Below, one piece after another: positions 1,578-18,491 of a DNA stretch of 64,000 nt. The notes below the pieces were generated by a model. That model searched no databases. It was not told the DNA's origin and saw nothing but the letters and a program-made list of their open reading frames with translations. Every line of letters begins with the position of its first letter. The first letter of the stretch is position 1. The position numbers were made by a program, and so were the translations under genes. Origin of the DNA: Enterobacillus tribolii (GTDB lineage Bacteria; Pseudomonadota; Gammaproteobacteria; Enterobacterales; Enterobacteriaceae); assembly GCF_003363015.1 (NCBI RefSeq), contig NZ_QRAP01000001.1, positions 1-64,000 on the forward strand, in the 5' to 3' direction.

Positions 1578-1976
1578 TTATTTTCTGACGGATTTAGACA
1601 GCAGCCACTGCCATTTTTCTTCGCGGTTGAGCTTACCGGGGGGAATGGCGGTCGTTATTCTGTCGCTCAGGGAAGTCGGAATACTCTCTATATTCACGGC
1701 GTTCAGAAGCCGGGCTTCGATAGAATCATCAATGTGTTCAACGCGCAGCAGGCGCTGACATTGGCAGCCGCGACCTGCCAGCTGGTTGGGAACGGTTTTG
1801 GTGGAGCAGGTTATCTCGTTCACCTCAGCGAGAATATAAGACACGGTGTTAACGGCCTTACTGAGCGGCAGGCCGAACTGCTCGGCAATAGACTGGGCGC
1901 ATACCCATGTTTTCTGTTGCATGACCCAGCGGGCGACGCAAAGATAAAGTGGCTCACGATCAAAATTTCTACTCAT
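1578..1976 (-). CDS. caiF: Carnitine operon transcriptional activator CaiF
   Basis: 132 residues, close to the 131 of E. coli CaiF. It shares the recognisable core REPLYLCVARWVMQ, the SKAVNT-YIL-EV segment, a GRGCQCQRL motif and the NREEKWQ-LSKS tail. CaiF activates the divergent cai and fix operons in response to carnitine under anaerobiosis. The frame stays open upstream to 2063, but the ATG at 1976 is preceded by AGGTGTGG at proper spacing and matches family length. Here caiF sits next to the esterase/carnitine dehydrogenase pair, at the far end of the fix operon; in E. coli it follows caiE. Confidence 0.93.
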   Translation of the reverse strand: MSRNFDREPLYLCVARWVMQQKTWVCAQSIAEQFGLPLSKAVNTVSYILAEVNEITCSTKTVPNQLAGRGCQCQRLLRVEHIDDSIEARLLNAVNIESIPTSLSDRITTAIPPGKLNREEKWQWLLSKSVRK

Positions 1977-2421
1977 ATCCACACCTATTAAACTTATTAA
2001 AACCGGGGACGATTGGGAATTGATGTGAAACTTTTCAGGGTTATCCCGGCGGCGGAAAATCATTTTCCGGCGCTAACCGTATGCGATGGAATAGTTTTTG
2101 AAATATTACTGCCCTCCAACATATACGCAGAACCCGACAAAATCACGCACTTTTTATATGGGTTAAGTCGATAATTAATGTGACTTTTTAGTAAATTTAA
2201 TGTTGTTTTCGTGTCATGAAATAAGCGCATTGAGATATTTTTGCGCAGATAAAGATGGCTCTTCGTTATTTTTTTAATGACAAAAGAAGCGCTGTGGATC
2301 TTTATTCAAACAATTCCGTAAACAGGAATGGGATTAAGAACTTTCAATATCATAGAAAGCGTCACGGTTTGCGTTGGTCTGCGCTATAGAATCCCCGAAG
2401 ATCGTAGGAAAGGGGATTTTT
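1977..2421. promoter_or_regulatory. Divergent control region caiF / esterase-dehydrogenase
   Basis: 445 bp, A+T-rich in its centre, separating caiF (minus) from the esterase gene (plus). Both promoters must lie here. I could not find a convincing CRP or FNR palindrome. A sequence at about 2231 (TTGAG-N4-TTTTG) resembles only one FNR half-site. No ORF here looks coding. Confidence 0.5.
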
Positions 2422-3384
2422 ATGAATGAAAACAACAAGCTTGATTTTCTTGGTCAGCTTTCACCGGAGATGATCGACGTTCTGCGCTACCAAAGGGAAC
2501 ACGCGGCGTCCTCCGGTGAGATGTCCCTGCCGGAAGCGCGTCTCCATTATCAGCAGGAGCGTCGCTTCTGGAATGAAGGCGGGCCGCAGATGGAACGCAT
2601 CACCGACGTTGACGTCCCGTACGAGGAGGGCGTTGTACGCACCCGGCTTTTCTGCCCGCAGCAGCGCATCAGCAACGGATGCCTGTTCTATCTGCACGGC
2701 GGCGGGTTTGTCGTCGGTAATCTGGATACCCATGACCGCATTATGCGTCTGCTGGCGCAGGAGAGCGGCTGTGTTGTGATCGGCGTGGACTACACGCTGG
2801 CGCCGGAGGCGCGTTTTCCGCGCGCCATTAAGGAGATCGCTGCCGTTTCCCGTTTTTTCCGCCAGCACAGCACGCAATATCAACTGGATCTGACCTGCTG
2901 CGGTTATGCAGGCGACTCCGCCGGCGCCTTGCTGGCGTTGAGCGCCTGTCTGTGGATGCGGGATCACGGGGAAGACATTTCCGGTATACGTGCGCTGCTG
3001 TTGTATTACGGCCTCTACGGTTTGCAGGATTCACGTACCCGCCGCTGGTACGGCGGTGAATGGGACGGCCTGACGCAGGTCGATCTGCGCTATTACCAGC
3101 AGATGTATCTGGCGCGGGAATCGGATATGCACTCCCCCCATTACTGCATTTTTAACAACGACCTGGCCCACGCCATGCCGGCCTGTTTTATCGCCGCCTG
3201 CGAATTCGATCCTTTGCGCGACGACAGCGAAACGCTTGCCACGGTACTGCAGGAAAAAAACATTCACTGTGAATACCGGGTATATCCCGGCACATTACAT
3301 GCTTTTCTGCATTATTCACGCATGATGAAAGCCGCCGGGCAGGCGATTGCCGACGGCGCCGCCTTTTTTCGGACCTTCGTTTGA
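2422..3384 (+). CDS. Alpha/beta hydrolase, hormone-sensitive-lipase-type esterase
   Basis: 320-residue serine esterase of the HSL/Aes family. It has the oxyanion-hole motif LHGGGF, the nucleophile elbow GDSAG, a later CEFDPLRDD with the acid residue, and a C-terminal GTLHAF histidine. Family members cleave short acyl esters. ATG 2422 is chosen because AGGAAAGGGG precedes it; an in-frame ATG at 2374 lacks such a site. The gene lies 32 bases before carnitine dehydrogenase in the same orientation and shares a control region with caiF. Inference: it may hydrolyse O-acylcarnitines to feed free carnitine into the locus; that substrate is not shown by the sequence. Confidence 0.85.
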   Translation: MNENNKLDFLGQLSPEMIDVLRYQREHAASSGEMSLPEARLHYQQERRFWNEGGPQMERITDVDVPYEEGVVRTRLFCPQQRISNGCLFYLHGGGFVVGNLDTHDRIMRLLAQESGCVVIGVDYTLAPEARFPRAIKEIAAVSRFFRQHSTQYQLDLTCCGYAGDSAGALLALSACLWMRDHGEDISGIRALLLYYGLYGLQDSRTRRWYGGEWDGLTQVDLRYYQQMYLARESDMHSPHYCIFNNDLAHAMPACFIAACEFDPLRDDSETLATVLQEKNIHCEYRVYPGTLHAFLHYSRMMKAAGQAIADGAAFFRTFV

Positions 3385-3416
3385 TATGAATCACTTTGAC
3401 ATTGGAGAGATATGAC

Positions 3417-4382
3417 ATGGGTTGGATAACTCACGTAGAGACCGTCGCCTCGCTGGGAAACGGCGTGATCGGCAGCGGATGGGTGGCCCGGGCGCTGGCC
3501 GGGGGAAAGAACGTGGTGGCGTGGGCGCGTACGGCTGAAACGGAAAGTAACCTGCGCCGGCGTCTGGATCTGGCCTGGGAAACGCTGGAGAGTCACGGTC
3601 TGGCGGCGCGCAGTGCGCTGTCAAACCTGCATTTCACCGGCACGGTGGCGGCGTGCGTGGCTGAGGCGGACTTTATTCAGGAAAGCACGCTGGAGCGGCT
3701 GGATCTCAAACGCGAGCTGCACCGGGATATCAGCTATGCCGCGCGTCCGGACGTCATTATTGCCTCCAGTACTTCCGGACTGCTGCCGTCCGAATTTTAC
3801 GATCAGAGCCTGAATCCGCAGCGCTGCGTGGTCGGCCATCCGTTCAACCCGGTTTATCTGCTGCCGCTGGTTGAGATCGTCGGCGGGCGTAACACCGCGC
3901 CGGAGGCGATTAGCGCGGCGACGGAAATATACACCGCGCTGGGAATGCGCCCGCTGCACGTGCGCCGGGAAGTGCCGGGGTTTATCGCCGATCGCCTGCT
4001 GGAAGCGCTGTGGCGTGAGGCGCTGCACCTGGTTAACGACGGCGTCGCGACTACCGGCGAGATTGATGACGCCATCCGCTTCGGCGCCGGGTTGCGCTGG
4101 TCGTTCATGGGAACTTTTCTCACCTATACGCTGGCCGGCGGCGAGGCGGGGATGCGCCATTTCATGCACCAGTTCGGCCCGGCGCTGAAACTGCCCTGGA
4201 CCTACCTGCCTGCGCCTGAACTGACGGAGCGCCTGATCGATGCGGTAGCAAAAGGGACTGAGCAACAACTGGGCGCCCGCAGCATCGCGCAAACCGAACG
4301 TTACCGCGATGACTGCCTGCTGGCGGTGATGAAGGCTATTGAAGAGGTTAAGGCCCGCCACGGAATGCGGGCCGGTGATTAA
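3417..4382 (+). CDS. L-carnitine dehydrogenase
   Basis: 321 residues, the usual length of the family. It belongs to the 3-hydroxyacyl-CoA dehydrogenase fold: an N-terminal Rossmann motif GNGVIGSGW, then [26 protein letters not shown] and [21 protein letters not shown]. The long stretch around residues 165-240 closely resembles Pseudomonas carnitine dehydrogenases as I remember them. The reaction is NAD+-dependent oxidation of L-carnitine to 3-dehydrocarnitine. The frame opens upstream with TTG at 3396, but ATG 3417 has GGAGAGA at six bases. It forms an operon with the esterase. The enzymes that normally take dehydrocarnitine to glycine betaine are not in the window. Confidence 0.88.
4352..4373. 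terminator. Hairpin inside the 3' end of carnitine dehydrogenase
   Basis: GGCCCGC (4352-4358) pairs perfectly with GCGGGCC (4367-4373). The convergent genes on either side overlap at their stop codons, so any transcription stop must be inside coding sequence; this stem is the obvious candidate. No T tract follows. Confidence 0.35.
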
Positions 4383-5695
4383 CAACTTTCCAGCTTGCTG
4401 GTTTCTTCGAGCGACATGCCGCGGGTTTCCGGCGCCATCGCGACAGAAACCAGCAGGCCAAGCAGCGAGATCCCCGCGCCGGCCAGCATGGTGGGCGCAA
4501 TGCCGTAATTCACGATGAAAATCGGCAGGGCATAGGTAGAGAGAACGGTCCCGATACGGCTGAGGGACATGGCGGCGCCGACGGCGGAGGCGCGGATGTC
4601 GGTGGGAAACAGTTCATTGGGGTACAGCCATTGCAGAATCCCCGGCCCGCCGGAAAAGAAGGCATAGACCGCGAACGCCACAACCACCATCCAGATGCCC
4701 GGCTCCGGAACAAGCCCCAGCAGGGCCAGCGCCGCGGTCATTACCGCGAAACTCCCGATCAACAACGGGCGGCGTCCGATGGAGTTCAGCCAGTACATGG
4801 CGGGAATGCAGCCAATGAGGAAAAACAGGCTGATGACGATATTCCCCAGCACGGACTCGCGCCCGCCCTCCAGCCCGAGCAGCCCGATAATCTGCGGCCC
4901 GAAGGTGTAAATGGCGAACATCGGGATCACCTGACACGACCAGATGATGCCGATGAAAACGATCATCTTCAGGTGACGTTTTTCAAAGATTTTACGGTAG
5001 CGCGTCGGTTCCGGCTCCTCAAAACCGAAGGTGAGTTCAGTGCCGAACAGTTCGCGCATCATTTTTTTGCACTCTTCAAGCCGCCCTTTACGCACCAGCC
5101 AGCGCGGTGATTCCGGCAGGTGAAAACGCCCCAGCAGGATCATGATGCAGGGAACGATCGCGCTGCCCAGCATCCAGCGCCAGCCGTTCTCCACGTCATA
5201 CAGCAGGTAACCGACGATATCCGCCGCGGTCGCGCCGACGTACCACATGGCGGCGATGAATCCCATTGAGAAAGCCCGGTGACGGGTCGGTGAGAATTCC
5301 GCGATCATCGACGTGGCGATAGGGTAGTCGGCGCCGATCACGATGCCGATAAGAAACCGCATCAGCACCAGCTCCAGCGGCGAAGAGATAAACATGGTGG
5401 CGGCGGAAATCACCGCGATGGCGATGATGTCGATGAGAAACATCAGCCGGCGGCCGAACAGGTCCGCGATGTAACCGAACAGGGCCGTGCCGATGAATAG
5501 CCCCGCCAGGGTGGCGGCGCCTACCAGCCCGGCCCACTGCGCGTCAAGCTTCAGGGCGGGCGTCAGCTGCTCCAGGGCAATGCCGATGATAACCAGCACG
5601 TATCCGTCGAGAAAAGGGCCGCCGCTGCCCCATAACAGGATTTTCCGGTGTATGGACGTAAAATTAATGTCGTCAAAATTTTTGGGCTGTTCCAT
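4379..5695 (-). CDS. yaaU: MFS transporter YaaU (sugar-porter-like)
   Basis: 438-residue 12-TM major facilitator protein. It matches E. coli YaaU closely: NFDD near the start, [15 protein letters not shown], the DxxGRR loop motifs, [31 protein letters not shown] and [12 protein letters not shown]. As in E. coli it follows fixX. The substrate is unknown; its position suggests a trimethylammonium compound or a carnitine pathway product (inference). ATG 5695 gives the E. coli-like N-terminus; an upstream in-frame ATG at 5767 would overlap the fixX stop. Its stop codon shares the palindromic TTAA at 4379-4382 with carnitine dehydrogenase. Confidence 0.9.
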
Positions 5696-5738
5696 AGTTT
5701 TTATACCGCTGCCGATCGGTGAATGGGCGGGAAATGCA

Positions 5739-5757
5739 GGCGGGCGTCTTGCCCGCC
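5739..5757 (-). terminator. Intercistronic hairpin fixX-yaaU
   Basis: GGCGGGC (5739-5745) pairs with GCCCGCC (5751-5757) in the 72-base gap between the fixX stop and the yaaU start. It probably attenuates or stabilises the fix message before yaaU. There is no long T run. Confidence 0.4.
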
Positions 5758-5767
5758 GGGATATCAT

Positions 5768-6055
5768 TTAACCGTAACGATATTCCACGCCGAAGGTACC
5801 GCGCGGATATTCCCATTTGTCCAACAGGGTTTCGCCGCACAGGATACGGCAGGTGCCGCACTCCAGGCAGCCGGCGTAGTCGAAGCGCACCGAGCCGTCA
5901 TCCTGTAGCTTGTACAGGCCGGCAGGGCAGGCGAGAGTCAGCGTCCGGTAGGCCTGCATGTCGGGATGCTCCCGGATAATGATGTGCGGATGGCCTTCAT
6001 CCACATGGTATTTGTTCACGCCAAGTTTGACGTCTACGTTAACGGATTCACTCAT
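5768..6055 (-). CDS. fixX: Ferredoxin-like protein FixX
   Basis: 95 residues, the same as E. coli FixX. It holds the CLECGTCRILC cysteine cluster (about residues 63-73), the earlier ACPAGLY segment, and the typical WEYPRGTFGVEYRYG C-terminus. It is predicted to pass electrons with FixABC to carnitine reduction (crotonobetainyl-CoA reductase CaiA). Its start overlaps the fixC stop by four bases (ATGA), indicating translational coupling. Confidence 0.95.
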   Translation of the reverse strand: MSESVNVDVKLGVNKYHVDEGHPHIIIREHPDMQAYRTLTLACPAGLYKLQDDGSVRFDYAGCLECGTCRILCGETLLDKWEYPRGTFGVEYRYG

Positions 6056-7338
6056 ATCGCTCCCACTCCCTTGATGCCATCTTTAATCAGATTGAGATAA
6101 CCAATGGCTTTGGCGTGCCGGAGGATCTTCTTGCGCATCGGCTGCGCCGGTTGGCCGTCGATGGTAAACATGTCTGCCATGAGGTCGGCCGCCATTTGCG
6201 GATATTGGCGGAACAGGCGCGGATTCTCCAGAAACGCCGGCAGCTTACGGTACGTTTTCAGATCGTGCAGCAATGCATTTTCTTCCAGGCGGGTACGGTA
6301 GCCCGCCAGCGCGCTGCGGCTGAAGTCGCTTTTTTCTTTGGCGTCGAGCACCGCCCGGGCCGCCGCCTCGCCGGAGGCGATCGCCATATCCATGCCGCGG
6401 ATGGTGAACCCCAGGTTCATGCACATCCCGGCGGCATCACCGGCAATCAGCACGCCGTCGCCGATGATTTCCGGCAGCATATTGATACCGACTTCCGGCA
6501 CCACGTGCGCGGCATATTCTTCCATTTTGCCGCCGGCGATTAACGGACGTACCGCCGGATGACGTTTAAAGTCCTCCAGCATCTGCGGTACGGATTTACC
6601 CGCCTCGCCGATGTGGTGCAACCCGCAGACCAGGCCGAGGGACAGGCTGTCTTCGTTGGTGTAAAGAAAGCCGCCGCCCATCAGCCCGTCAGAAGGCGAA
6701 CCGGCGAGCAGCCAGGCGACGCCCTGCCTGTTTTCCAGATTGAAACGGTCCTCCAGCACGCCCTTTGGCAGGCTGATGACCTCTTTAACGCCGACCGCCA
6801 CTGATTCCGGTTTTATCCGTTTCACCATGCCCAGCGATTCGCCCAGCAGGGAATTAACGCCGTCAGCCAGGATCACTACGTTGGCTTCCAGCACGTCGCC
6901 GTCCGCCTCCACGCCGGTGACCTTGCCGTCGCGGGTGACTAACTTATCTACGCGGATACCCGCAATGCACTGTGCGCCGGCCGATTCTGCCTGCGCCATC
7001 AGCCAGGCGTCGAACTTCGCGCGCAGCACTGAATAGGAAACCTGCGCCGGCGCGCCGGCCGGTGCCTGGTAGTCCAGGGTGACTGCGCTGGTTTCGGTGA
7101 GAAAAGAGACCTTCTCGCGGGTAATCAGCCGTTCTACCGGGGCTTCACCGGCGAAGCCGGGGATAATTCTTTCCAGACTGTGTGCGTACATCCGGCCGCC
7201 GGTGACGTTCTTCGCCCCGGCGGCGTTGCCGCGTTCAATGACCAGCACATCGGCTCCCGCACGGGCCAGCACCAGCGCCGCCGTCGCGCCGGCGAGCCCG
7301 CCGCCGACGATAATGGCGTCAAACACTTCTTCTGACAT
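6052..7338 (-). CDS. fixC: FAD-dependent oxidoreductase FixC (ETF-quinone oxidoreductase-like)
   Basis: 428 residues, matching E. coli FixC. The FAD-binding GGGLAGATAAL motif lies at the N-terminus, with AGAKNVTGGRMYAHSLE following, and GDGVLIAGDAAGMCMNLGF near residue 290 for the second FAD contact. With FixABX it forms an electron-transfer complex supplying reductant to CaiA. It lies between fixB and fixX. The 76-base gap to fixB contains a strong stem, GCCGGCGG (7366-7373) with CCGCCGGC (7380-7387). Confidence 0.95.
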   Translation of the reverse strand: MSEEVFDAIIVGGGLAGATAALVLARAGADVLVIERGNAAGAKNVTGGRMYAHSLERIIPGFAGEAPVERLITREKVSFLTETSAVTLDYQAPAGAPAQVSYSVLRAKFDAWLMAQAESAGAQCIAGIRVDKLVTRDGKVTGVEADGDVLEANVVILADGVNSLLGESLGMVKRIKPESVAVGVKEVISLPKGVLEDRFNLENRQGVAWLLAGSPSDGLMGGGFLYTNEDSLSLGLVCGLHHIGEAGKSVPQMLEDFKRHPAVRPLIAGGKMEEYAAHVVPEVGINMLPEIIGDGVLIAGDAAGMCMNLGFTIRGMDMAIASGEAAARAVLDAKEKSDFSRSALAGYRTRLEENALLHDLKTYRKLPAFLENPRLFRQYPQMAADLMADMFTIDGQPAQPMRKKILRHAKAIGYLNLIKDGIKGVGAI

Positions 7339-7414: not shown

Positions 7415-8341
7415 CTACTTATTCAGTTCACGGACCAATACCGGGACGATTTTGAACAGATCGCCGACGATGCCGTAGTCCGCATGCTGGAAAATCGGGG
7501 CGTTCTTGTCCCGGTTGACCGCGGCGATGATTTGCGCGCCATTGGCGCCGACCATATGCTGAATCTGACCGGAGATCCCCAACGCCAGATACAGCTCCGG
7601 CTTGATCATGATGCCGGAGATACCGACGTAGCGTTCCCGCTCCATCCATTTCTCATTTTCCGCCACCGGGCGCGAACAGCCGAGCTCTGCGCCGATGGCG
7701 GCGCTCAATTGCCCGGCCAGGGCGATATTTTCCTGATTACCGATACCGCGCCCGACGCTGACTACCCGCTTCGCTTTACCGAGGTCAACGTTGCTGCCCT
7801 GTTTTGCCCGCCGCTCAAGGCAGGTAATGGGGTTACGCGGGGCGATAAATTCCGGGGAAATCTCTTCACCGCCGCCGACCGGTGCCGCCGGCGCAAACGT
7901 GCCGCTGCCCAGCGTGACGATGGCGACGGGAGAAACCAGCCGCTCTTCGCCCAGCGCCAGCCCGCCGTAAACCATATGGGTCGCAAGCGCGCCGGACTGA
8001 TCCGCCCGCAGTACGGAAACGTCATTACATACCCCGGCATTGAGGCGTGCGCCCAGGCGAGCCGCCATCGCTTTGCCGCGGCGGGTGGCGGGCAGCAACA
8101 CCAGCGAATGTCCACCGCCCTGTGCGATGCAGTGCGCCAGCGTGTCGGCGTAGTCTTCGGTCAGCCCGCTGCCGCCGCTCAGCGTGTATATCGCGTCAGC
8201 GCCCAGAGCAAGCACGGTTTCCTTCTGTTCCTGCGTTACGAATACCTGAACCTTTTCACCTAATTCCCGGGCGCCGCCGATCAGCTCCGCAAAGCGGGCG
8301 GCGTTGTCGCTGAAAACCCATACGTTGGCAAACTTATTCAT
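7415..8341 (-). CDS. fixB: Electron transfer flavoprotein alpha subunit FixB
   Basis: 308 residues; ETF alpha family. The N-terminal ETF domain begins MNKFANVWVFSDN. The C-terminal FAD domain contains VSVGRGIGNQENI, GCSRPVAENEKWM, PELYLALGISGQIQHM and DYGIVGDLFKIVP. ATG 8341 is chosen because GGGGGAAG precedes it, 13 bases after the fixA stop. The frame runs open to 8413, but that would overlap fixA. It pairs with FixA to carry electrons towards crotonobetaine reduction. Confidence 0.95.
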   Translation of the reverse strand: MNKFANVWVFSDNAARFAELIGGARELGEKVQVFVTQEQKETVLALGADAIYTLSGGSGLTEDYADTLAHCIAQGGGHSLVLLPATRRGKAMAARLGARLNAGVCNDVSVLRADQSGALATHMVYGGLALGEERLVSPVAIVTLGSGTFAPAAPVGGGEEISPEFIAPRNPITCLERRAKQGSNVDLGKAKRVVSVGRGIGNQENIALAGQLSAAIGAELGCSRPVAENEKWMERERYVGISGIMIKPELYLALGISGQIQHMVGANGAQIIAAVNRDKNAPIFQHADYGIVGDLFKIVPVLVRELNK

Positions 8342-8354
8342 GACTTCCCCCGGA

Positions 8355-9128
8355 TTAGTTGAGAATTTTGCGTAAATGGTCGGCAAATGCGGCGATTTGC
8401 TCATCACCGTCACCTTCGATGATGATGTTCAGACGTTCTTTCTGCTTCGGCGCGGCGACGGAAACGGGTTCGCTCAGCGTTTCGATGCCGTCAAGGCCGA
8501 GGTCGGCGCAGTTCCATACGGTGACCGGTTTCTTGGCCGCGGATAAAATCGCCTTCATCGAGGGGATCGGCGGGTCGTTAATGTCGGTGGACACGCAGAT
8601 TGCCGCAGGCAGCGGGATCGCCAGAACCTCGACTTCATCCTCCAGCGTGCGTTCCACGGTCAGCGTGTCCGGCGTGACGGAAAGGATTTTGCTGACGCCG
8701 TTGATGGCCGGGATGCCCAGGTATTCTCCCAGCAGCAGGCCGACCTGCTGGGCATAAAGATCGCCGGAGCCGTCGCCGCAGACGATCACATCGAAACCCA
8801 GCTTACCGGCGGCGGCGGCCAGCACGCGCGCGGTGCGGTGGGGAAGCGCGTCATGCAGCGTTTCGTCGATGACCTGCGTCAGGCTGCCCGGGCCGCGTGA
8901 CAGGACGTCTTTACGGGCCTTGGGGTTTTCCAGCGTTTTGCCGCCCGCGCTCAGGGCAATAATTTGTGCGTCATTGCATACCGATTGAATGCCGACCGCC
9001 GCCTCGATGGCATTAAGATCAAACTGACTGATTTTAGGTTCAGCCTTGGTGAAATTCAGGCTGCCATCATTATTGACGATGATATCCTGTTCCTCAGGAA
9101 TTAATTTATAACATGCGAGAATCTTCAT
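8355..9128 (-). CDS. fixA: Electron transfer flavoprotein beta subunit FixA
   Basis: 257 residues, ETF beta family. It begins [16 protein letters not shown] and contains [10 protein letters not shown]-like [27 protein letters not shown] and the [16 protein letters not shown] loop. It is the first gene of fixABCX-yaaU and divergent from caiT. Two tandem ATGs occur (9131 and 9128). GGAG sits three bases before the first and six before the second, and the second gives the E. coli-like N-terminus. Confidence 0.95.
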
Positions 9129-9228
9129 CATATCTCCAATTTTTATCCCAATCGGCGAGAAGGGTAAATATCAAATGCGAGTCTGGATTAACGTCAGTCC
9201 GCTCAGAAAATCTGATGTGACAAAAAAA

Positions 9229-9847: not shown

Positions 9848-11374
9848 ATGAATAATGATACAGGCAAAGCACGGAAGATTGGCATTGAACCCAAGGTCTT
9901 TTTTCCGTCATTGATTATCGTCGCTTTACTCTCTTATTTGACCATAAGGGATCTCGATGCGTCGAATAAGGTCATTAATGCGGTGTTCAGCTATATCACC
10001 CACGACTGGGGCTGGGCGTTTGAGTGGTACATGGTCGTGATGCTGGGCGGATGGTTCTGGCTGATCCTCGGGCCGTTCGCCAACAGAAAGCTGGGCGATG
10101 AAGATCCGGAATTCAGTACGCTGAGCTGGATTTTCATGATGTTTGCCTCCTGCACCTCTGCGGCGGTGCTGTTCTGGGGCTCCATCGAGATTTATTACTA
10201 CATTTCCACGCCGCCTTTCGGCCTGGAGCCGTTCTCTACCGGCGCGAAGGAGCTGGGGCTGGCATACAGCCTGTTCCACTGGGGGCCGCTGCCCTGGGCG
10301 ACGTACAGCTTCCTCGCGGTGGCGTTCGGTTATTTCCTGTTCGTACGCAAAATCAACGTTATCCGGCCGAGCGGGACGCTGGTGCCGCTGCTGGGAGAAA
10401 AGCGCAGTAAAGGCATCATCGGCATCATCATCGACAACCTTTACCTGGTCGCGCTGATCCTGGCGATGGGCACCAGCCTCGGGCTGGCCACGCCGCTGGT
10501 GACGGAATGTATTCAGTATCTGTTCGGCGTGCCCCATACCCTGGAGCTGGATGCCATCATCATTTCCTGCTGGATCGTCGTTAACGCGATATGCGTGGCG
10601 TTTGGTTTGCAGAAAGGCGTCAAGATCGCCAGCGACGTGCGGAACTACCTCAGCCTGATGGTGTTGGCATGGGTGCTGATCATCGGCGGCGCCAGCTTTA
10701 CGGTGAACTATTTCACCGACTCGGTGGGGATGTTGCTGATGAACGTCGGCCGCATGCTGTTTTACACCGACGCCATCGGTAAGAGCGGCTTCCCGCAGGA
10801 CTGGACGGTCTTTTACTGGGCGTGGTGGATCGTCTACGGCATCCAGATGTGTATCTTCCTGGCGCGAATCTCCAAGGGCAGAACCGTGCGTCAGCTGTGC
10901 CTCGGCATGGTCGGCGGGCTTACTGCGTCAACCTGGCTGCTGTGGACCATTCTGGGCAGTAACACCATCACCCTGATCAATAAAAACATCATTGATATTC
11001 CGCAGCTCATCAAGGAGCACGGCGTTCCCCGCGCCATTATCGAAACCTGGGCGGCGCTGCCGCTGAGCACCGTGACCATGTGGGCATTTTTCATCCTGTG
11101 CTTTATCGCCACGGTAACGCTGATTAACGCCTGTTCCTACACGCTGGCGATGTCGACCTGCAAGGAAGCCAGCGGCTATGAGGAACCGCCGGTATGGGTG
11201 CGGGTCGGGTGGTCGGTGCTGGTGGGGGTGATTGGCATCATCCTGCTGGCGCTGGGCGGCCTGAAGCCGATTCAGACCGCGATTATCGCCGGCGGATGCC
11301 CGCTGTTTTTCGTCAACATCATGATAACGGTCTCCTTCCTCAAGGATGCCAAATCCACGCACTGGAAATACTGA
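9848..11374 (+). CDS. caiT: L-carnitine/gamma-butyrobetaine antiporter CaiT
   Basis: 508 residues; BCCT family with 12 predicted TM segments. Family hallmarks include KVFFPSLI near the start, [18 protein letters not shown], the WGSIEIYYY tryptophan segment, a Gly/Ser-rich [10 protein letters not shown] in the unwound helix, and [28 protein letters not shown]. It exchanges external carnitine for internal gamma-butyrobetaine, independent of sodium. It is first in the plus-strand cai operon. GGGAAG precedes ATG 9848. Confidence 0.96.
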
Positions 11375-11401: not shown

Positions 11402-12541
11402 ATGGATTTTAAGCTGACCGATGAACAGGAACTGTTTGTTGCTGGCATCCGCGATTTGATGGAGCGGGAAAACTGGGAAAGCTATTTTGCCGACTGTGAC
11501 CGCGACAGCGAATACCCGCTGCGCTTCGTGAAGGAACTGGCGGATATGGGCATCGACAGCCTGCTGATTCCCGAAGAACACGGCGGCTTTGAGGCCGGGC
11601 TGGTAACGGTCACCGCGGTATGGGAAATACTGGGACGCCTGGGCGCGCCGACCTACGTGCTGTATCAGTTGCCGGGCGGCTTCAACACCGTGCTGCGTGA
11701 AGGGTCGCCGGAACAGATCGACAAGATCATGGCCTTCCGCGGCACCGGCGAGCAAATGTGGAACTCCGCCATTACCGAACCGGGCGCCGGGTCGGACGTC
11801 GGCAGCCTGCAAACCAACTACACGCGGCGTAACGGCAAGGTTTATCTCAACGGCAGCAAATGCTTCATCACCAGCAGCGCGCGCACGCCTTATCTGGTGG
11901 TGATGGCGCGGGATGCATCGTCGGAGAAACCCGTCTTTTCCGAGTGGTTCGTGGATATGAGCAAGCCTGGCATCCGGGTCAACAAGCTGGAGAAGCTGGG
12001 CCTGCGCATGGACAGCTGCTGCGAAATCCTGTTCGACAACGTTGAGCTGGAAGAGAAGGACATGTTCGGCCGGGAAGGCAACGGTTTCAACCGGGTGAAA
12101 GAAGAGTTCGATCACGAACGCTTCCTGGTGGCGCTGACCAACTACGGCACGGCCTACTGCGCGTTTGAAGACGCGGCTAAATATGCCAATCAGCGCGTGC
12201 AGTTCGGCGAGGCTATCGGGCGTTATCAGCTGATCCAGGAAAAATTCGCCCATATGCAGATCAAGCTGACCAACATGCGCAACATGCTGTACGAAGCGGC
12301 CTGGAAGGGCGACAACGGCGGCATGACCTCCGGCGATTCGGCGATGTGTAAATACTACTGCGCCCACGCCGCCTTTGAAGTGGTGGACGACGCCATGCAG
12401 GTGCTGGGCGGCATCGGTATCGCCGGTGAACACCGTGTTACCCGCTTCTGGCGCGACCTGCGCGTCGATCGCGTCTCCGGCGGCACCGATGAGATGCAGA
12501 TCCTGACGCTGGGACGTTCGGTGCTGAAACAGTACCGCTGA
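11402..12541 (+). CDS. caiA: Crotonobetainyl-CoA reductase CaiA
   Basis: 379 residues, acyl-CoA dehydrogenase fold and nearly the same length as E. coli CaiA (380). Recognisable segments are [20 protein letters not shown], the FAD-binding [50 protein letters not shown] and the C-terminal [20 protein letters not shown]. It reduces crotonobetainyl-CoA to gamma-butyrobetainyl-CoA with electrons from FixABCX. AAGGGG precedes ATG 11402, 27 bases after caiT. Confidence 0.96.
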
Positions 12542-12593: not shown

Positions 12594-13811
12594 ATGTCCA
12601 AAAAATTACATACCCCGTCGTTCGGTATTCTGGAAGGCGTGCGGGTGGTGTTTTCCGGCATTGAGGTCGCCGGGCCGTTCGGCCCGCAGATGATGGCGGA
12701 GTGGGGCGCAGAGGTGATCTGGATTGAAAACGTCGCCTACGACGACACGCTGCGGGTGCAGAAGAACTATTGCGAGCTGGACCGTCGCAACCAGCACAGC
12801 CTGTCGATGAATATCTTCGCCGATGAAGGCCGGGAAGCGTTTCTGAAGCTGATGGAAACCACCGATATCCTGATTGAATCCAGCAAAGGGCCGGCCTTCG
12901 CCCGGCGCGGTATTACCGACGAACTGCTGTGGCAGCGCAATAAGTCATTGGTGATCGTGCATGTCTCCGGCTACGGCCAGTACGGGGTGGACGAGTACAT
13001 CAACCTGCCGTCCTACGACCTGATCGCCCAGGCGTTCAGCGGTTACCTGATTCAGAACGGCGATCGCGATCAGCCGATCCCCGCCTTTCCCTATACCGCC
13101 GACTATCTGGCGGCGTTTACCGTACTCAGCGCCTCGCTGGCCGCGTTATACCGGGTGCAGAAAACCGGCGAGGGAGAAAGCATCGACGTGGCGATGTATG
13201 AGGTCATGCTGCGCATCGGCCAGTACTACATGATGGACTACTTCAACGGCGGCACGCTTTACCCGCGCTCCACCAAGGGCAAAGACCCCACGCAGGTCGG
13301 GTGCGGCGTATACCGCTGCAGCGATGGCTTTATCGGCATTGAGCTGGTGGGCGGCAAGCAGGTGAAAAGCATGCTTGAGGAACTGGGGATGGGGCATCTG
13401 CTTGGCACGCCGGATTACCCGGAAGGCATTCCCGGCATCCGCGCTGACAGCCCGGCGGCGGAAGAGCTGGAGGCGAAGCTTGATGCTTTCTTCGCCGCAA
13501 AAACCATTGCCGAAGCGGAAAGCGTACTGGCGAAATTCACTATTGCCGCCGGCAAGGTGATGACCATTCCGGAGCTGGAAAATCATCCGCAGTATCTGGC
13601 GCGGGAAAACTTCATTGAATGGCAGGCGGAAAGCGGGAAAACGCTCAAAGGACCGAACGTGATGCCGAAATTCAGCCGTCACCCCGGCAAAGTCTGGCGC
13701 GCGATGCCCGCCCGCGGCAAGGATACCGCCGATATCCTGAGCGATCTCGGCTATTCACCACAGGAAATCAATATGATGCGTGAAAAAGGTATCATCAGGA
13801 TCAGTGAATAA
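12594..13811 (+). CDS. caiB: L-carnitine CoA-transferase CaiB
   Basis: 405 residues, exactly the E. coli length. Class III CoA-transferase: [46 protein letters not shown], and the catalytic aspartate in FPYTADY (D170, equivalent to E. coli D169). It moves CoA from gamma-butyrobetainyl-CoA or crotonobetainyl-CoA to carnitine. ATG 12594 gives the family N-terminus; an in-frame ATG at 12543 has no family support. It is third in the operon. Confidence 0.96.
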
Positions 13812-13827
13812 CCACGGGTGAGACGTT

Positions 13828-15393
13828 ATGGATACTATCGGCGACACGACGCTGCGTGACATGTGGGATGAACGCGCCGCGCGCTATGGGGACAAAACCG
13901 CGCTGGTTTATGAAGACTGTGCGGGGAATACCCGTGAATACAGCTATGCTCGGCTCGGAGCGGACATCAACCGGGCGGCAAACCTGTTTCTCAGCCTCGG
14001 CATCGGTAAAGGCGATCGGGTGGCGGTGCAGATCGCCAACAGTCCGGAGTTCGTCATGTGCTGGTACGGGTTGGCCTGTATCGGCGCGATTGCCGTTCCC
14101 GTCAATACGCAATACACCGCCGGCGAGTGCGAGTATCTGACGGAAAAATGCGGCGTGACGGCCGTGGTGGCCGAAGCGGCGTTTCTGCCGTTATACCGGA
14201 CGGTGCGCCATACGTTGCGTCATATCCTGCTGGTCAGGGGCGGGGAAACGTTACCGCCGGATGTCCTGGCCTTCGAGACGCTGCATCAGCACCAGCCGGA
14301 TCGCCTGGTACGGTGCGAGCCGTTGGGCAGCGACGACGTTGCCGAAATCCTGTTTACCTCGGGCACGACGTCGCGGCCCAAAGGCGTGGTGATTACGCAC
14401 TGCAATCTGCTGCATGCCGGGCGTTTCACCGCCTGGCAGGTCGGCATCACCCGGAATGAACGCTATTTGTCCTCAATGCCCGCCTTCCACGTGGACTTTC
14501 AGTGCAGCGCCGCCATGCCGGTGTTCATGATGGGCGCGACGCTGATTCTGCTGGAGAAATACAGCGCGCGTAACTTCTGGCGGCAGGTATGCCTGCACCG
14601 CGCCACCCTGACGCACAGCATGCCGCTGATCCTGCGTACCCTGCTGTTGCAGCCGGTGGCGGCGTGGGAGAAAAACCATTGTCTGCGCGACATGGGGTTC
14701 TATCTCAATATCAGCCTGGCGGAGAAGGCGCGCTTCGAGCAACGTTTCAACGTCACGTTGTTCAATTCTTACGGGCTGTCGGAAACGCTGGTCGGCCTGA
14801 TCGGGGATTGCCCCGGCGACGAACGGCATTACCCGTCTATCGGCCGGCCGGGTCTGGGCTATGAAGCCAAAATCGCCGACCGGGAAGGCAACGCGCTGGG
14901 GCCGCATCAGGTCGGGGAAATTTACGTCCGCGGCGTTCCGGGGCGGACGCTGTTCCGCGAATACTACAACGACCCGCAGGCCACGCAGGCCACGCTCACC
15001 CCGGACGGCTGGATGCGTACCGGCGACAAGGGCTACGTGGACGAGCGCGGGCTGTTTTACTTCGTCGATCGGGCGGTGAACGTCATTAAACGCTCCGGCG
15101 AAAATATCGCCAGCAGCGAAGTGGAAACCCTGCTGGAAAGCCATCCCGGCGTGGCGGAAGCGGCGGTGATCGGCGTGCCGGACCCGATCCGCGATGAAGC
15201 GGTAAAAGCCTACATCATCGTGCGCGACGGCGTAACGCTGAGCGAAGCGGAGATTCTGGATTACTGCGCTGCCGGCCTGGCGAAATTCAAGGTGCCTTCT
15301 TACATCGAATTCGTCAGGGAACTGCCGCGAACCTGTACCGGCAAGGTGTGCAAAAAACAACTGAAGGCGCGGCCTGTGCTGTGCGAAGAGTAA
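13828..15393 (+). CDS. caiC: Crotonobetaine/carnitine-CoA ligase CaiC
   Basis: 521 residues; ANL-superfamily adenylate-forming ligase. It has the P-loop-like FTSGTTSRPKGVVIT, SYGLSETLVG, GWMRTGDKGYVDE and the C-terminal hinge FVDRAVNVIKRSGENI, and ends with the catalytic-lysine region TCTGKVCKKQLK. It starts the pathway by forming the first betainyl-CoA from a betaine, CoA and ATP. It starts 16 bases after caiB. E. coli CaiC is 517 residues. Confidence 0.95.
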   Translation: MDTIGDTTLRDMWDERAARYGDKTALVYEDCAGNTREYSYARLGADINRAANLFLSLGIGKGDRVAVQIANSPEFVMCWYGLACIGAIAVPVNTQYTAGECEYLTEKCGVTAVVAEAAFLPLYRTVRHTLRHILLVRGGETLPPDVLAFETLHQHQPDRLVRCEPLGSDDVAEILFTSGTTSRPKGVVITHCNLLHAGRFTAWQVGITRNERYLSSMPAFHVDFQCSAAMPVFMMGATLILLEKYSARNFWRQVCLHRATLTHSMPLILRTLLLQPVAAWEKNHCLRDMGFYLNISLAEKARFEQRFNVTLFNSYGLSETLVGLIGDCPGDERHYPSIGRPGLGYEAKIADREGNALGPHQVGEIYVRGVPGRTLFREYYNDPQATQATLTPDGWMRTGDKGYVDERGLFYFVDRAVNVIKRSGENIASSEVETLLESHPGVAEAAVIGVPDPIRDEAVKAYIIVRDGVTLSEAEILDYCAAGLAKFKVPSYIEFVRELPRTCTGKVCKKQLKARPVLCEE

Positions 15394-15472: not shown

Positions 15473-16324
15473 ATGGCGTTAAAACTGGATATGCAGGGAA
15501 AGACTTACGGACCGTTTGTGCGGGAATACACTTTCCGCGACCTGATTCTGTTCGCTCTGGGATGCGGCGCGGGGCAGGACGGTATCACCGATCTGGAATA
15601 CGTGTATGAAAAAGACCTCAAAATTCTGCCGATGTTTGCGGCGATGCCGATTGTCGACAGCGAGGTGACCAAAACCATTGACTATGGCTTTGACTGGGGT
15701 GGTTCCCTGCACTGGGGGTTCGACCTGAAATTCCACCAGCCGATGACCCGGCTTTCCGGCAAACTGAGCACGCACGTACTGCTGAATGCGCTGTACGATC
15801 GGGGGGAAGGGCGGGGATGTCTGGCCCAGCATATCGGTGAAACCTTCGATGAAACCGGGACTAAGCTGTTTACCAACGAAAGCTGGGACTGCGCATTGTT
15901 CGACGGCGGCTTCGGCGGCCCCAAAGCGCCGAAGGACGTTGTTGAAATCCCGGAGCGGGAACCGGACTTCAGCGTTACGGAGCGGGTGCCGCTGAATCAG
16001 GCGCTGATTTATCGCCTTTCCGGCGATTATCACCCGCAGCACATCGACTGGGAGTATGCGCAGAAGTACGGCTATCAGAAGCCGATCCTGCATGCCGTCA
16101 GCACCGCCGGCGTCGCCTGCCGCCATATCATCGCCACGCTGTTCCCCGGCCAGCCGGAGCGCCTGACACGCTTTAAAACCCGTATCACCAAGCCACTTTA
16201 CCCCGGTGCGACGATCATCACGCAAATGTGGAAGTGGAGCGAGAACTGTATTCATTTCCGGGTGATGGATGCGGATAATCCGGAGGTATTTTACCTGAAC
16301 TTCGGATTGGTTGAGTGGGCGTAA
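15473..16324 (+). CDS. MaoC/hydratase-2 type enoyl-CoA hydratase replacing CaiD
   Basis: 283 residues, double hot-dog (hydratase-2, peroxisomal MFE-2-like) protein, unrelated in fold to crotonase-type CaiD. The C-terminal hot-dog carries YRLSGDYHPQHID (180-192), the hydratase-2 signature, but the usual Asn of GDxNP is His187; Asp185 and His190 remain. The usual PILHG is PILHA. ATG 15473 has AAGGTGA at a good distance. It is last in caiTABC-maoC, in the slot of caiD, so the inferred reaction is reversible hydration of crotonobetainyl-CoA to (R)-carnitinyl-CoA. Hydratase-2 enzymes give the R product, the configuration of L-carnitine. No caiD or caiE follows. Confidence 0.82.
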   Translation: MALKLDMQGKTYGPFVREYTFRDLILFALGCGAGQDGITDLEYVYEKDLKILPMFAAMPIVDSEVTKTIDYGFDWGGSLHWGFDLKFHQPMTRLSGKLSTHVLLNALYDRGEGRGCLAQHIGETFDETGTKLFTNESWDCALFDGGFGGPKAPKDVVEIPEREPDFSVTERVPLNQALIYRLSGDYHPQHIDWEYAQKYGYQKPILHAVSTAGVACRHIIATLFPGQPERLTRFKTRITKPLYPGATIITQMWKWSENCIHFRVMDADNPEVFYLNFGLVEWA

Positions 16325-16674: not shown

Positions 16675-17385
16675 ATGAACGCGTCACAAAAATATGGAAG
16701 AACCTACCATTATCCGTTCTCCCCCGGCACCACCAGCGATGATCGGATCAATGCGGATTACTGGCGGGATATTCAGTCTGTTGAACGGTTAATTCATACT
16801 GAAAAGCTGGACGGTGAAAATAACTGCCTGAACCGCTACGGCGTATTTGCCCGCTCTCATGCCGCGCCGACGCAGTCCGCCTGGACGGCAAAAATACGGC
16901 AACGTTGGGCGTTAATTAAAAACGATCTCGGCGACCTGGAATTATTCGGCGAGAACCTGTATGCCGTTCATTCCATTGAATACCGCGCATTGGAGCAGGA
17001 TTTTTTTATTTTCGCGGTACGCTGCAAAGATATGTGGCTGAGCTGGGAAGAAGTGAAGGTTTGCGCGGCGCTGTATGATTTTCCCTGCGTCCCGGAACTG
17101 CCCGCGTTGCCGGCGCCGGTTGATGAAGCGCAATGGCGGCGGGATTTTCTGGCCCGGGTGGAAAGCCGCGGTGCGTTTGATCCCTGGGACGTGCACACCG
17201 GCCAGCCCTGCACCATGGAGGGTATCGTTTCGCGTGCGGCCGGCGAGTTTCCGGTATCGGATTTTGCCCGTCATGTTTTCAAATACGTGCGCAAGAATCA
17301 CGTTAAAACAACACAGCACTGGAAACGCAACTGGCGCCGGGCGCGTATGGCCTGGGAGTTTCCTTACGGGGAGGACGGGCGATGA
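16675..17385 (+). CDS. ATP-dependent RNA ligase, Rnl2/DraRnl-like
   Basis: 236-residue nucleotidyltransferase-fold ligase. The motifs occur in order: motif I EKLDGEN with predicted AMP-accepting Lys44; FARSH (59-62) for motif Ia; GENLY (92-96), motif III; FFIFAVR (109-115), IIIa; EGIVSR (181-186), motif IV; and KYVRK (202-206), motif V. These are what an RNA ligase needs to adenylate itself and seal 5'-phosphate to 3'-OH ends. There is no OB fold, so it is a compact stand-alone ligase. The ribosome site is weak. Its stop overlaps the next start (ATGA), coupling it to the end-healing enzyme. The native RNA target is unknown. Confidence 0.85.
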   Translation: MNASQKYGRTYHYPFSPGTTSDDRINADYWRDIQSVERLIHTEKLDGENNCLNRYGVFARSHAAPTQSAWTAKIRQRWALIKNDLGDLELFGENLYAVHSIEYRALEQDFFIFAVRCKDMWLSWEEVKVCAALYDFPCVPELPALPAPVDEAQWRRDFLARVESRGAFDPWDVHTGQPCTMEGIVSRAAGEFPVSDFARHVFKYVRKNHVKTTQHWKRNWRRARMAWEFPYGEDGR

Positions 17386-18491
17386 GCTGGCAACTGACGA
17401 CGGATAAAGCGTGGAACGCCCTCGAAACCCGCTTCCCGTGGGTGGCCGATATGCGCCACGTCCCCCAGGATCGGCGGCACCACGCGGAGGGCGACGTGGC
17501 GACGCATACCCGTATGGTGCTGGAGGAACTGGCGAAACTGCCTGGCGTTCAGGCGTTGACGGAAGAGCAACGGGAGATTGTCTGGGCAGCGGCGTTGTTG
17601 CACGACGTGGAAAAACGCAGTACGACGCAGACCGACGACGCGGGGAATATCACCTCGCCGGGGCATGCGCGTATGGGCGAGCTCACGGCCCGCCGGCTGC
17701 TTTACCGTGATATTCCCACGCCGTTTCATATCCGCGAGCAGGTGGCTGCGCTGGTGCGGTTACACGGTCTGCCGATGTGGCTGCTGGAGCGCCCGTCGCC
17801 GGAGCGCCAGGTTTTGGCCGCCGCGCTGCGCGTTGATCTGCGCCTGCTGGCAATTTTAGCGGAGGCTGACCTGCGCGGACGGCAGTGCGAAGACCAGGCC
17901 GGGCTGCTGGAGCGGCTTGAGCTGTTCGGACTGTTTTGTCAGGAACAGATGTGCTGGGGGCAGGCCCGCGCGTTTACCAGCGCCGCCGCCCGCTATCACT
18001 ACCTGACGCACCCGGAAAGCCCGCCGGAGTACGAGCCATGGCCCGTTCCCGGCAGCGGGGTGACGCTGCTCTCGGCGTTGCCCGGCATGGGGAAAGATCG
18101 CTACGTGGCGCAGCATTGCCAGGGGATGGCGGTAGTCAGCCTGGACGACATCCGCCGCCGGCACCGCATCGATCCGAAAGACAGCAATGCCAATGGTTGG
18201 GTGGTGCAACAGGCGAAGGAGCAGGCGCGCGTGCTGCTGCGCCGGGGCGAACCGTTTGTCTGGAACGCGACGAATCTCACCCGGCAACTGCGCGCGCAGC
18301 TGATTCAGCTGTTCACGGATTATCATGCGACGGTGAGGATTGTCTATCTGGAGGTCCCCTATGCTCAGTGGCGTGCGCAGAATCAGCAGCGGGAATATGC
18401 GGTGCCGGACGCGGTGATGGACCGGATGTTAAGGAAGCTGGAGGTGCCGCAGCGGGATGAGGCGCACTGCGTCGAGTATTTTGTCAGTTAA
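17382..18491 (+). CDS. HD phosphoesterase-polynucleotide kinase fusion (HD-Pnk-like RNA end-healing enzyme)
   Basis: 369 residues with two domains. Residues about 20-200 are an HD phosphohydrolase: H34, H42, HD at 74-75 in ALLHDVEK, and GHARMG near 94. Residues about 225-369 are a P-loop kinase: LPGMGKD (233-239), then SLDDIRRRH and WNATNLTRQLR, as in T4 Pnk-type kinases. The same domain order is known from Runella HD-Pnk, which removes 2',3'-phosphates and phosphorylates 5'-OH ends. With the overlapping upstream ligase it makes a complete heal-and-seal RNA repair pair. The HD domain's specificity is inferred from that architecture. Confidence 0.85.
   Translation: MSWQLTTDKAWNALETRFPWVADMRHVPQDRRHHAEGDVATHTRMVLEELAKLPGVQALTEEQREIVWAAALLHDVEKRSTTQTDDAGNITSPGHARMGELTARRLLYRDIPTPFHIREQVAALVRLHGLPMWLLERPSPERQVLAAALRVDLRLLAILAEADLRGRQCEDQAGLLERLELFGLFCQEQMCWGQARAFTSAAARYHYLTHPESPPEYEPWPVPGSGVTLLSALPGMGKDRYVAQHCQGMAVVSLDDIRRRHRIDPKDSNANGWVVQQAKEQARVLLRRGEPFVWNATNLTRQLRAQLIQLFTDYHATVRIVYLEVPYAQWRAQNQQREYAVPDAVMDRMLRKLEVPQRDEAHCVEYFVS

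Follow-up and report, generated by a model that had tools for sequence, protein, structure and literature searches.

The window analysed here, 64,000 nucleotides at the start of contig NZ_QRAP01000001.1 of Enterobacillus tribolii, contains a caiTABC operon of the kind that converts carnitine to gamma-butyrobetaine. Its last gene (positions 15473-16324) probably encodes a crotonobetainyl-coenzyme A (CoA) hydratase of the hydratase-2 fold that does the job of CaiD, as judged from sequence comparison. This assignment draws on a kept catalytic dyad, the predicted hydratase-2 fold, linkage to cai or fix genes in all 63 loci with a related gene, a genome search in which no CaiD exceeded its cut-off, and the mosaic trees of the operon.

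The hydratase gene and its product

The open reading frame (ORF) starts with ATG at 15473 and stops at 16322-16324, giving a product of 283 amino acids. The protein scored above the gathering cut-off (27 bits each) with both Pfam domains of the two-hotdog, MFE-2 type hydratase-2 (MaoC) family, MFE-2_hydrat-2_N (PF22622; 45.1 bits) and MaoC_dehydratas (PF01575; 59.7 bits). It matched no NCBIfam model at an E value of 0.001, and thus fell short of the score above 500 bits with NF002936 that marks CaiD. The top phmmer match was human MFE-2 hydratase 2 (1s9c; 130 bits, 30% identical). An AlphaFold2 model, based on an alignment of 31 sequences (mean predicted local distance difference test 83.1, predicted template modelling score 0.84; weak around residues 141-160), aligned with 1s9c over the whole length (Z 32.3, root-mean-square deviation 2.1 over 272 residues). 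By this predicted model, the protein has the fold of the solved hydratase-2 structures. The initial annotation, which had called the last caiTABC gene a double-hot-dog MaoC hydratase and not a crotonase-fold CaiD, is borne out by the two Pfam domains, the fold model and the lack of a CaiD match.

Alignment places the catalytic dyad at D185 and H190, an Asp and a His five residues apart in the overhanging segment. An alignment of 67 sequences comprised the window protein, those of the 63 loci described below, a Curtobacterium plasmid copy and two second copies. H187 and H190 do not vary in it, and D185 occurs in 65 sequences. D185 is missing from the second copies of Endozoicomonas elysicola (L010:7108-7956) and of a Campylobacterales metagenome-assembled genome (MAG; L032:10198-11046), both in operons that also encode an intact protein. 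In these, Ile and Cys stand in place of the catalytic Asp, and the catalytic His is retained; the L032 cai cluster contains two caiB genes in addition to its two MaoC genes. Speculatively, these Asp-less copies might be non-catalytic partner subunits, by analogy to ChsH2, described as the non-catalytic partner of ChsH1 (PMC11321319).

The usual dyad consensus, GD-x-N-P-[LI]-H, was present in 8/8 usable ordinary hydratase-2 outgroup proteins (outgroup L177, read out of frame, was dropped from this count and is still in the list of family-specific residues). The window protein departs from it, and the cai-linked family reads GD-x-H-P, with the Asn replaced by His in 67/67 sequences. This departure is not decisive, since the hydratase-2 subfamily is described as varying in this motif while conserving the dyad (PMC2698920). 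On this alignment, the Asn-to-His change marks a subfamily. Compared to ordinary hydratase-2 proteins, 46 positions are family-specific, of which four are in the catalytic loop (H187, Q189, W193 and Y195). W81 and W138 are family-specific as well, and we conjecture that together with W193 they may hold the trimethylammonium group. Note that the catalytic residues Asn226 and His231 reported for mesaconyl-CoA hydratase are also five apart (PMC10164722), so that Asn226 occupies the Asp position and not that of the residue changed in the cai family.

No caiD over cut-off was found in the genome of E. tribolii. There were five crotonase-family matches, none above the CaiD cut-off, with the best at 138 bits against 500. 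Three of these are PaaF, PaaG and MenB by their own models; the other two are within open frames of 776 and 749 amino acids, taken from their length to be FadB/FadJ. A caiD elsewhere in the genome was therefore rejected. Likewise, no protein exceeded the CaiE cut-off (best 278.6 bits against 305): the best CaiE relative is PaaY (TIGR02287, 335.5 bits, cut-off 319.6), and a second, weaker match reached 102.9 bits at 41%. The search of the whole genome, which might have overturned the initial annotation, thus agreed with it in finding neither caiD nor caiE over cut-off.

Spread of the gene and origin of the operon

To place these findings among relatives, we used 392 genomes sampled from the same family (Enterobacterales, as inferred from matches); the genus of the window is represented by one genome. 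CaiB scored above cut-off in 62/392, the own genome included. Each of the 61 others has a CaiD relative beside CaiB (77-99% identity to E. coli CaiD; split in two in L126), and the ~11-kb stretches around CaiB contain no copy of the MaoC protein (0/61). At full length, this MaoC protein was found in the own genome only (1/392), three others giving partial matches of 20-23 bits. That CaiD has been replaced in the window genome is well supported.

A pattern scan of GTDB contigs, which reaches close relatives only, so that the true spread may be wider, recovered 63 loci with a related MaoC (59-82% identity) in five bacterial groups. Carriers are Endozoicomonas, Shewanella, Ferrimonas, Bacillota of Bacillaceae type, a Peptococcaceae MAG, many Actinomycetota, a Dormibacterota MAG and a Campylobacterales MAG. 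A related MaoC (58.6%) is also found on a Curtobacterium plasmid (L007, 83 kb), where caiB, in two pieces and with no gene-table entry, adjoins caiC and the MaoC gene. Within the stretches read, one or more cai or fix homologues were present in 63/63 loci and caiC in 60/63; in the remaining three the stretch is short or starts just before the gene. By sequence and gene linkage, the window gene belongs to a cai-linked hydratase-2 subfamily found across phyla.

CaiD over cut-off was detected in 12/50 cases searched (49 genomes and the plasmid), all Shewanella or Ferrimonas; 37/49 genomes carrying the MaoC gene had none. This search covered all but 14 of the 63 loci and included some MAGs, for which single absences are weak. 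Of 117 Shewanella genomes, CaiD scored over cut-off in 27 and MaoC was present at full length in 18 (two weak partial matches of 20-25 bits among 20 were dropped). All 18 are among the 27, with the two genes side by side in 18/18. CaiD is alone in nine, and the three of these that were read have caiTABCD and no MaoC gene. A single change on the MaoC tree accounts for the two-gene state. Thus, the MaoC gene can live beside CaiD in some lineages and alone in others. A one-for-one replacement of CaiD across all bacteria was rejected, given that the two genes occur together in Shewanella and Ferrimonas. The non-orthologous replacement initially proposed is therefore supported for this genome, one of 62 that are CaiB-positive, but not for Shewanella and Ferrimonas, where the gene was added to caiD. 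Surveying cai operons for caiD versus MaoC likewise gave a divided answer, with 37/49 MaoC genomes lacking CaiD but 18/18 MaoC-bearing Shewanella having both.

The trees of the operon proteins point in different directions. With FastTree, window FixA (support 0.997), CaiT (0.964) and CaiA (0.967) grouped with enterobacteria (Endozoicomonas CaiT also falls in the enterobacterial part of its tree). Window CaiB fell with Endozoicomonas elysicola (0.92), and window CaiC with the second CaiC that four genomes of a single enterobacterial genus carry (0.97). IQ-TREE placed window CaiA inside the enterobacterial clade (support 96.6). In approximately unbiased (AU) tests, grouping of window CaiB with enterobacteria (p-AU 5.8e-5) and of CaiC with the usual enterobacterial caiC clade (p-AU 4.7e-8) was rejected. 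These sets held 44-45 sequences, with the CaiC second copies (three of four in the subset) outside the constrained group; the tested groups were chosen after the first FastTree trees, which makes the p values somewhat flattering. Enterobacterial descent of the whole operon was accordingly rejected for CaiB and CaiC. On these trees, the operon is a mosaic in which the exchange starts between caiA and caiB, and caiB, caiC and maoC may have arrived together. Enterobacterial caiB, caiC and caiD, with or without caiE, would have given way to caiB-caiC-maoC from another line, with caiT, caiA and fix retained.

In the four genomes with two caiC genes (L151, L164, L166 and L168), the second copy lies ~0.6-0.7 kb after caiD and its product is 62-63% identical to window CaiC, compared to 53-54% for the first. 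No MaoC remnant was found beside the second CaiC at an E value of 1e-8 in the four stretches read from these genomes, nor at 1e-4 in L170.

Stereochemistry and rival explanations

In the pathway that we propose, CaiT would import carnitine, CaiB/CaiC would load it onto CoA, the window hydratase would remove water via D185/H190 to give crotonobetainyl-CoA, and CaiA with FixABCX would reduce this to gamma-butyrobetainyl-CoA. The steps other than the hydratase step are modelled on the E. coli operon. Activity of the window hydratase on carnitinyl-CoA and crotonobetainyl-CoA is very likely.

The initial annotation had argued that an R-specific hydratase-2 fits L-carnitine. Comparison of Cahn-Ingold-Prelog (CIP) priorities, with the sign checked on L-alanine, inverts this argument. 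In carnitine CH2N+ outranks CH2CO, whereas in 3-hydroxyacyl-CoA the acyl arm takes priority over the alkyl tail, so that the same spatial arrangement is named S in 3-hydroxybutyryl-CoA and R in carnitine. (R)-carnitine thus has the arrangement of an (S)-3-hydroxyacyl chain, as made by crotonase-type hydratases such as CaiD. Hydratases 1 and 2 were reportedly found by Koski in 2004 to have mirror-image active sites. The known hydratase-2 enzymes are described as yielding (3R)-hydroxyacyl-CoA (PMC2698920), the arrangement of (S)- or D-carnitine, and a canonical hydratase-2 would therefore give D-carnitine. Equating R with R in favor of L-carnitine was rejected, as the descriptors differ in priority order between the two compounds. 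Either the family has turned its facial selectivity, perhaps by the invariant Asn-to-His change, or it serves D-carnitine. The face rule may be less strict in the E. coli system, as a review names CaiD as contributing to carnitine racemase activity and reports conversion of D- to L-carnitine in E. coli (PMC2131755).

We favor L-carnitine, with some reserve, as the isomer used by the window hydratase, which would require attack on the alkene face opposite to that of known hydratase-2 enzymes. L-carnitine is the abundant natural isomer, an L-carnitine dehydrogenase is encoded in the same cluster, most of the carriers searched are without CaiD over cut-off, and the Propionibacterium freudenreichii yogurt data described below point the same way. 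More tentatively, and with rather more doubt than confidence, we propose a cross-phylum hydratase-2 family with a turned face that makes and uses (R)- or L-carnitinyl-CoA by virtue of the Asn-to-His change, perhaps with a tryptophan-lined trimethylammonium site, and that replaced CaiD at least once in enterobacteria.

Several observations besides the canonical face weigh against a CaiD-like role in an operon acquired as described. The gene directly follows caiD in 13/63 loci (11 Shewanella, 2 Ferrimonas), and a second L-hydratase beside CaiD would be redundant there. The nearest CaiB is in Endozoicomonas and the nearest CaiC in an enterobacterial genus; with such different sources, the foreign genes need not be one piece. 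The 79-nt gap between caiC and maoC contains a weak terminator-like hairpin, within regional chance (10 found, mean of shuffles 7.8); a consensus scan, which proves little, found no promoter in this gap. Finally, a substrate other than carnitine is possible. The spatial argument and the pairing with caiD (18/18 Shewanella genomes, 2/2 Ferrimonas loci) would both be explained if the protein were a D-carnitine hydratase, linking (S)-carnitinyl-CoA and crotonobetainyl-CoA through the face opposite to CaiD. Paired with CaiD, it would make up a D/L route of two enzymes via crotonobetainyl-CoA, and alone it would take D-carnitine to gamma-butyrobetaine. We consider this unlikely, though far from negligible: MaoC is the only candidate in 37/49 genomes and the own, the more abundant isomer in nature and the substrate of the dehydrogenase in the cluster is L, and the catalytic loop carries the invariant Asn-to-His change. 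Moreover, E. coli is reported to convert D- to L-carnitine without a MaoC gene, an activity attributed to CaiD (PMC2131755).

It is improbable that the hydratase acts on another cluster-linked enoyl-CoA, for example one derived from acyl groups freed by the esterase, while the operon reduces imported crotonobetaine. Related hydratase-2 enzymes are described as acting on fatty enoyl-CoAs (PMC2698920), and esterase homologues of at least 200 bits occur in 39/63 MaoC loci. However, 14/63 have weaker matches (100-200 bits), mostly 27-32% identical, and 10/63, including the four Bacillota loci, have none over 100 bits. An esterase homologue was found in 4/61 of the enterobacterial stretches. Linkage of the MaoC gene to caiC in five bacterial groups and the family-specific positions, including those in the catalytic loop, also argue against this explanation. 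Still less credible is that the MaoC gene is a passenger, with another crotonase acting at the CaiD step. Crotonase domains are indeed encoded elsewhere in the genome, in PaaF, PaaG, MenB and two long frames, but the best of these falls far below the CaiD cut-off, the three identified ones belong to other pathways, and a passenger gene is hard to reconcile with a dyad kept in 65/67 sequences.

The cai locus, related systems and implications

The features of the cai region are listed in Table 1. The operon combines caiT, caiA, caiB and caiC equivalogs with fixABCX; fixB scores below its cut-off but has ETF alpha domains.

Table 1. Annotated genes around the carnitine operon, in window coordinates
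Feature	Position	Strand	Basis
maoC-type hydratase-2 (double hotdog), proposed crotonobetainyl-CoA hydratase (carnitinyl-CoA dehydratase)	15473..16324	+	Pfam domains, alignment, AlphaFold2 model
caiC, crotonobetaine/carnitine-CoA ligase	13828..15393	+	NF005947 828 bits, cut-off 651
caiB, L-carnitine CoA-transferase	12594..13811	+	NF002914 646 bits, cut-off 413; start taken at in-frame ATG 12594, longest ORF begins 12543
caiA, crotonobetainyl-CoA dehydrogenase/reductase	11402..12541	+	NF002885 761 bits, cut-off 540
caiT, L-carnitine/gamma-butyrobetaine antiporter	9848..11374	+	NF002887 918 bits, cut-off 541
fixA	8355..9131	-	NF002888 418 bits, cut-off 219
fixB (frame from ATG at 8341)	7415..8341	-	ETF and ETF_alpha; NF002889 402 bits, below cut-off 549
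fixC	6052..7338	-	NF007542 740 bits, cut-off 610
fixX, 95 aa	5768..6055	-	71% identical to E. coli FixX
yaaU-like major facilitator superfamily (MFS) transporter	4379..5767	-	Sugar_tr / MFS_1; 74% identical to E. coli YaaU
L-carnitine dehydrogenase	3396..4382	+	NF005471 561 bits, cut-off 414
Abhydrolase_3 esterase	2374..3384	+	PF07859 177.5 bits; NF007547 acetyl esterase 450 bits, cut-off 389
caiF, regulator of carnitine genes	1578..2063	-	NF008549 152.5 bits, cut-off 140; longest ORF, family match starts at residue 30

The esterase, which may be an acylcarnitine hydrolase, and the L-carnitine dehydrogenase (together 2374-4382, plus strand) sit between caiF and yaaU, the dehydrogenase 11 kb from the hydratase gene. 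A scan for carnitine dehydrogenase beside other cai loci gave matches only in the own genome (L216; L138 at 31%, in a phenylacetate region); most enterobacterial stretches are 11 kb long and end inside fix, and the place beyond yaaU was mostly unread. Directly after the cai operon (16675-18491, plus strand) are genes for an RNA ligase (PF09414) and a protein with HD and AAA_33 domains, which look like an RNA-repair pair.

The locus resembles the E. coli cai system (caiTABCDE, fixABCX, caiF) in having caiT, caiA, caiB, caiC, divergent fixABCX, yaaU and caiF. It differs in that a hydratase of another fold takes the place of caiD, caiE over cut-off was not found, caiF is on the far side of fix, and caiB and caiC are outside the usual enterobacterial line. 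Shewanella and Ferrimonas operons share caiTABC and a MaoC 75-77% identical to that of the window, but keep caiD directly before the MaoC gene and caiE after it. Human MFE-2 hydratase 2 (1s9c) shares the whole-length fold and the Asp/His dyad with the window protein; it reads GD-W-N-P-L-H where the latter has GD-Y-H-P-Q-H, and the Pro following H-I-D corresponds to W193.

A precedent comes from P. freudenreichii. The Scoary2 paper reports that its isolates are without caiD and caiT, and that the gaps might be filled by an MFS transporter and an enoyl-CoA hydratase encoded between caiABC and fixABCX (PMC11007987). Strains with the full cluster gave yogurt with more carnitine and putative gamma-butyrobetaine, according to the same source (PMC11007987). 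That an enoyl-CoA hydratase fills the caiD gap was thus already suggested in 2024 for this species (PMC11007987). The cluster lacks caiT, unlike the window operon, and the available part of the source names neither the fold or family of the hydratase nor its stereochemistry (PMC11007987). A locus from the family of a Brooklawnia MAG (L208; 67% G+C) has the order MFS, Abhydrolase_3, caiA, caiB, caiC, MaoC, YaaU-type transporter, fixABCX. Since this is the published P. freudenreichii order, the published hydratase is probably this MaoC. In L208, frame breaks interrupt the YaaU-type transporter and, apparently, the esterase. A literature search joining carnitine, MaoC and caiA found no paper, and one for caiD with MaoC gave nothing on point, as judged by titles and the starts of abstracts.

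Reduction of carnitine to gamma-butyrobetaine is described as contributing to the formation of trimethylamine in the gut (PMC8364193). At least one survey database of the pathway is reported to be built on six models, CaiT to CaiE (PMC11857547). As such a set has no model for the MaoC hydratase, operons using it could be half-called, and by record names these include many host-associated Actinomycetota. On stereochemistry, the protein would be either a hotdog hydratase with an inverted face or part of a dedicated D-carnitine route. The cai-linked MaoC family is also a candidate catalyst for making carnitine from crotonobetaine.
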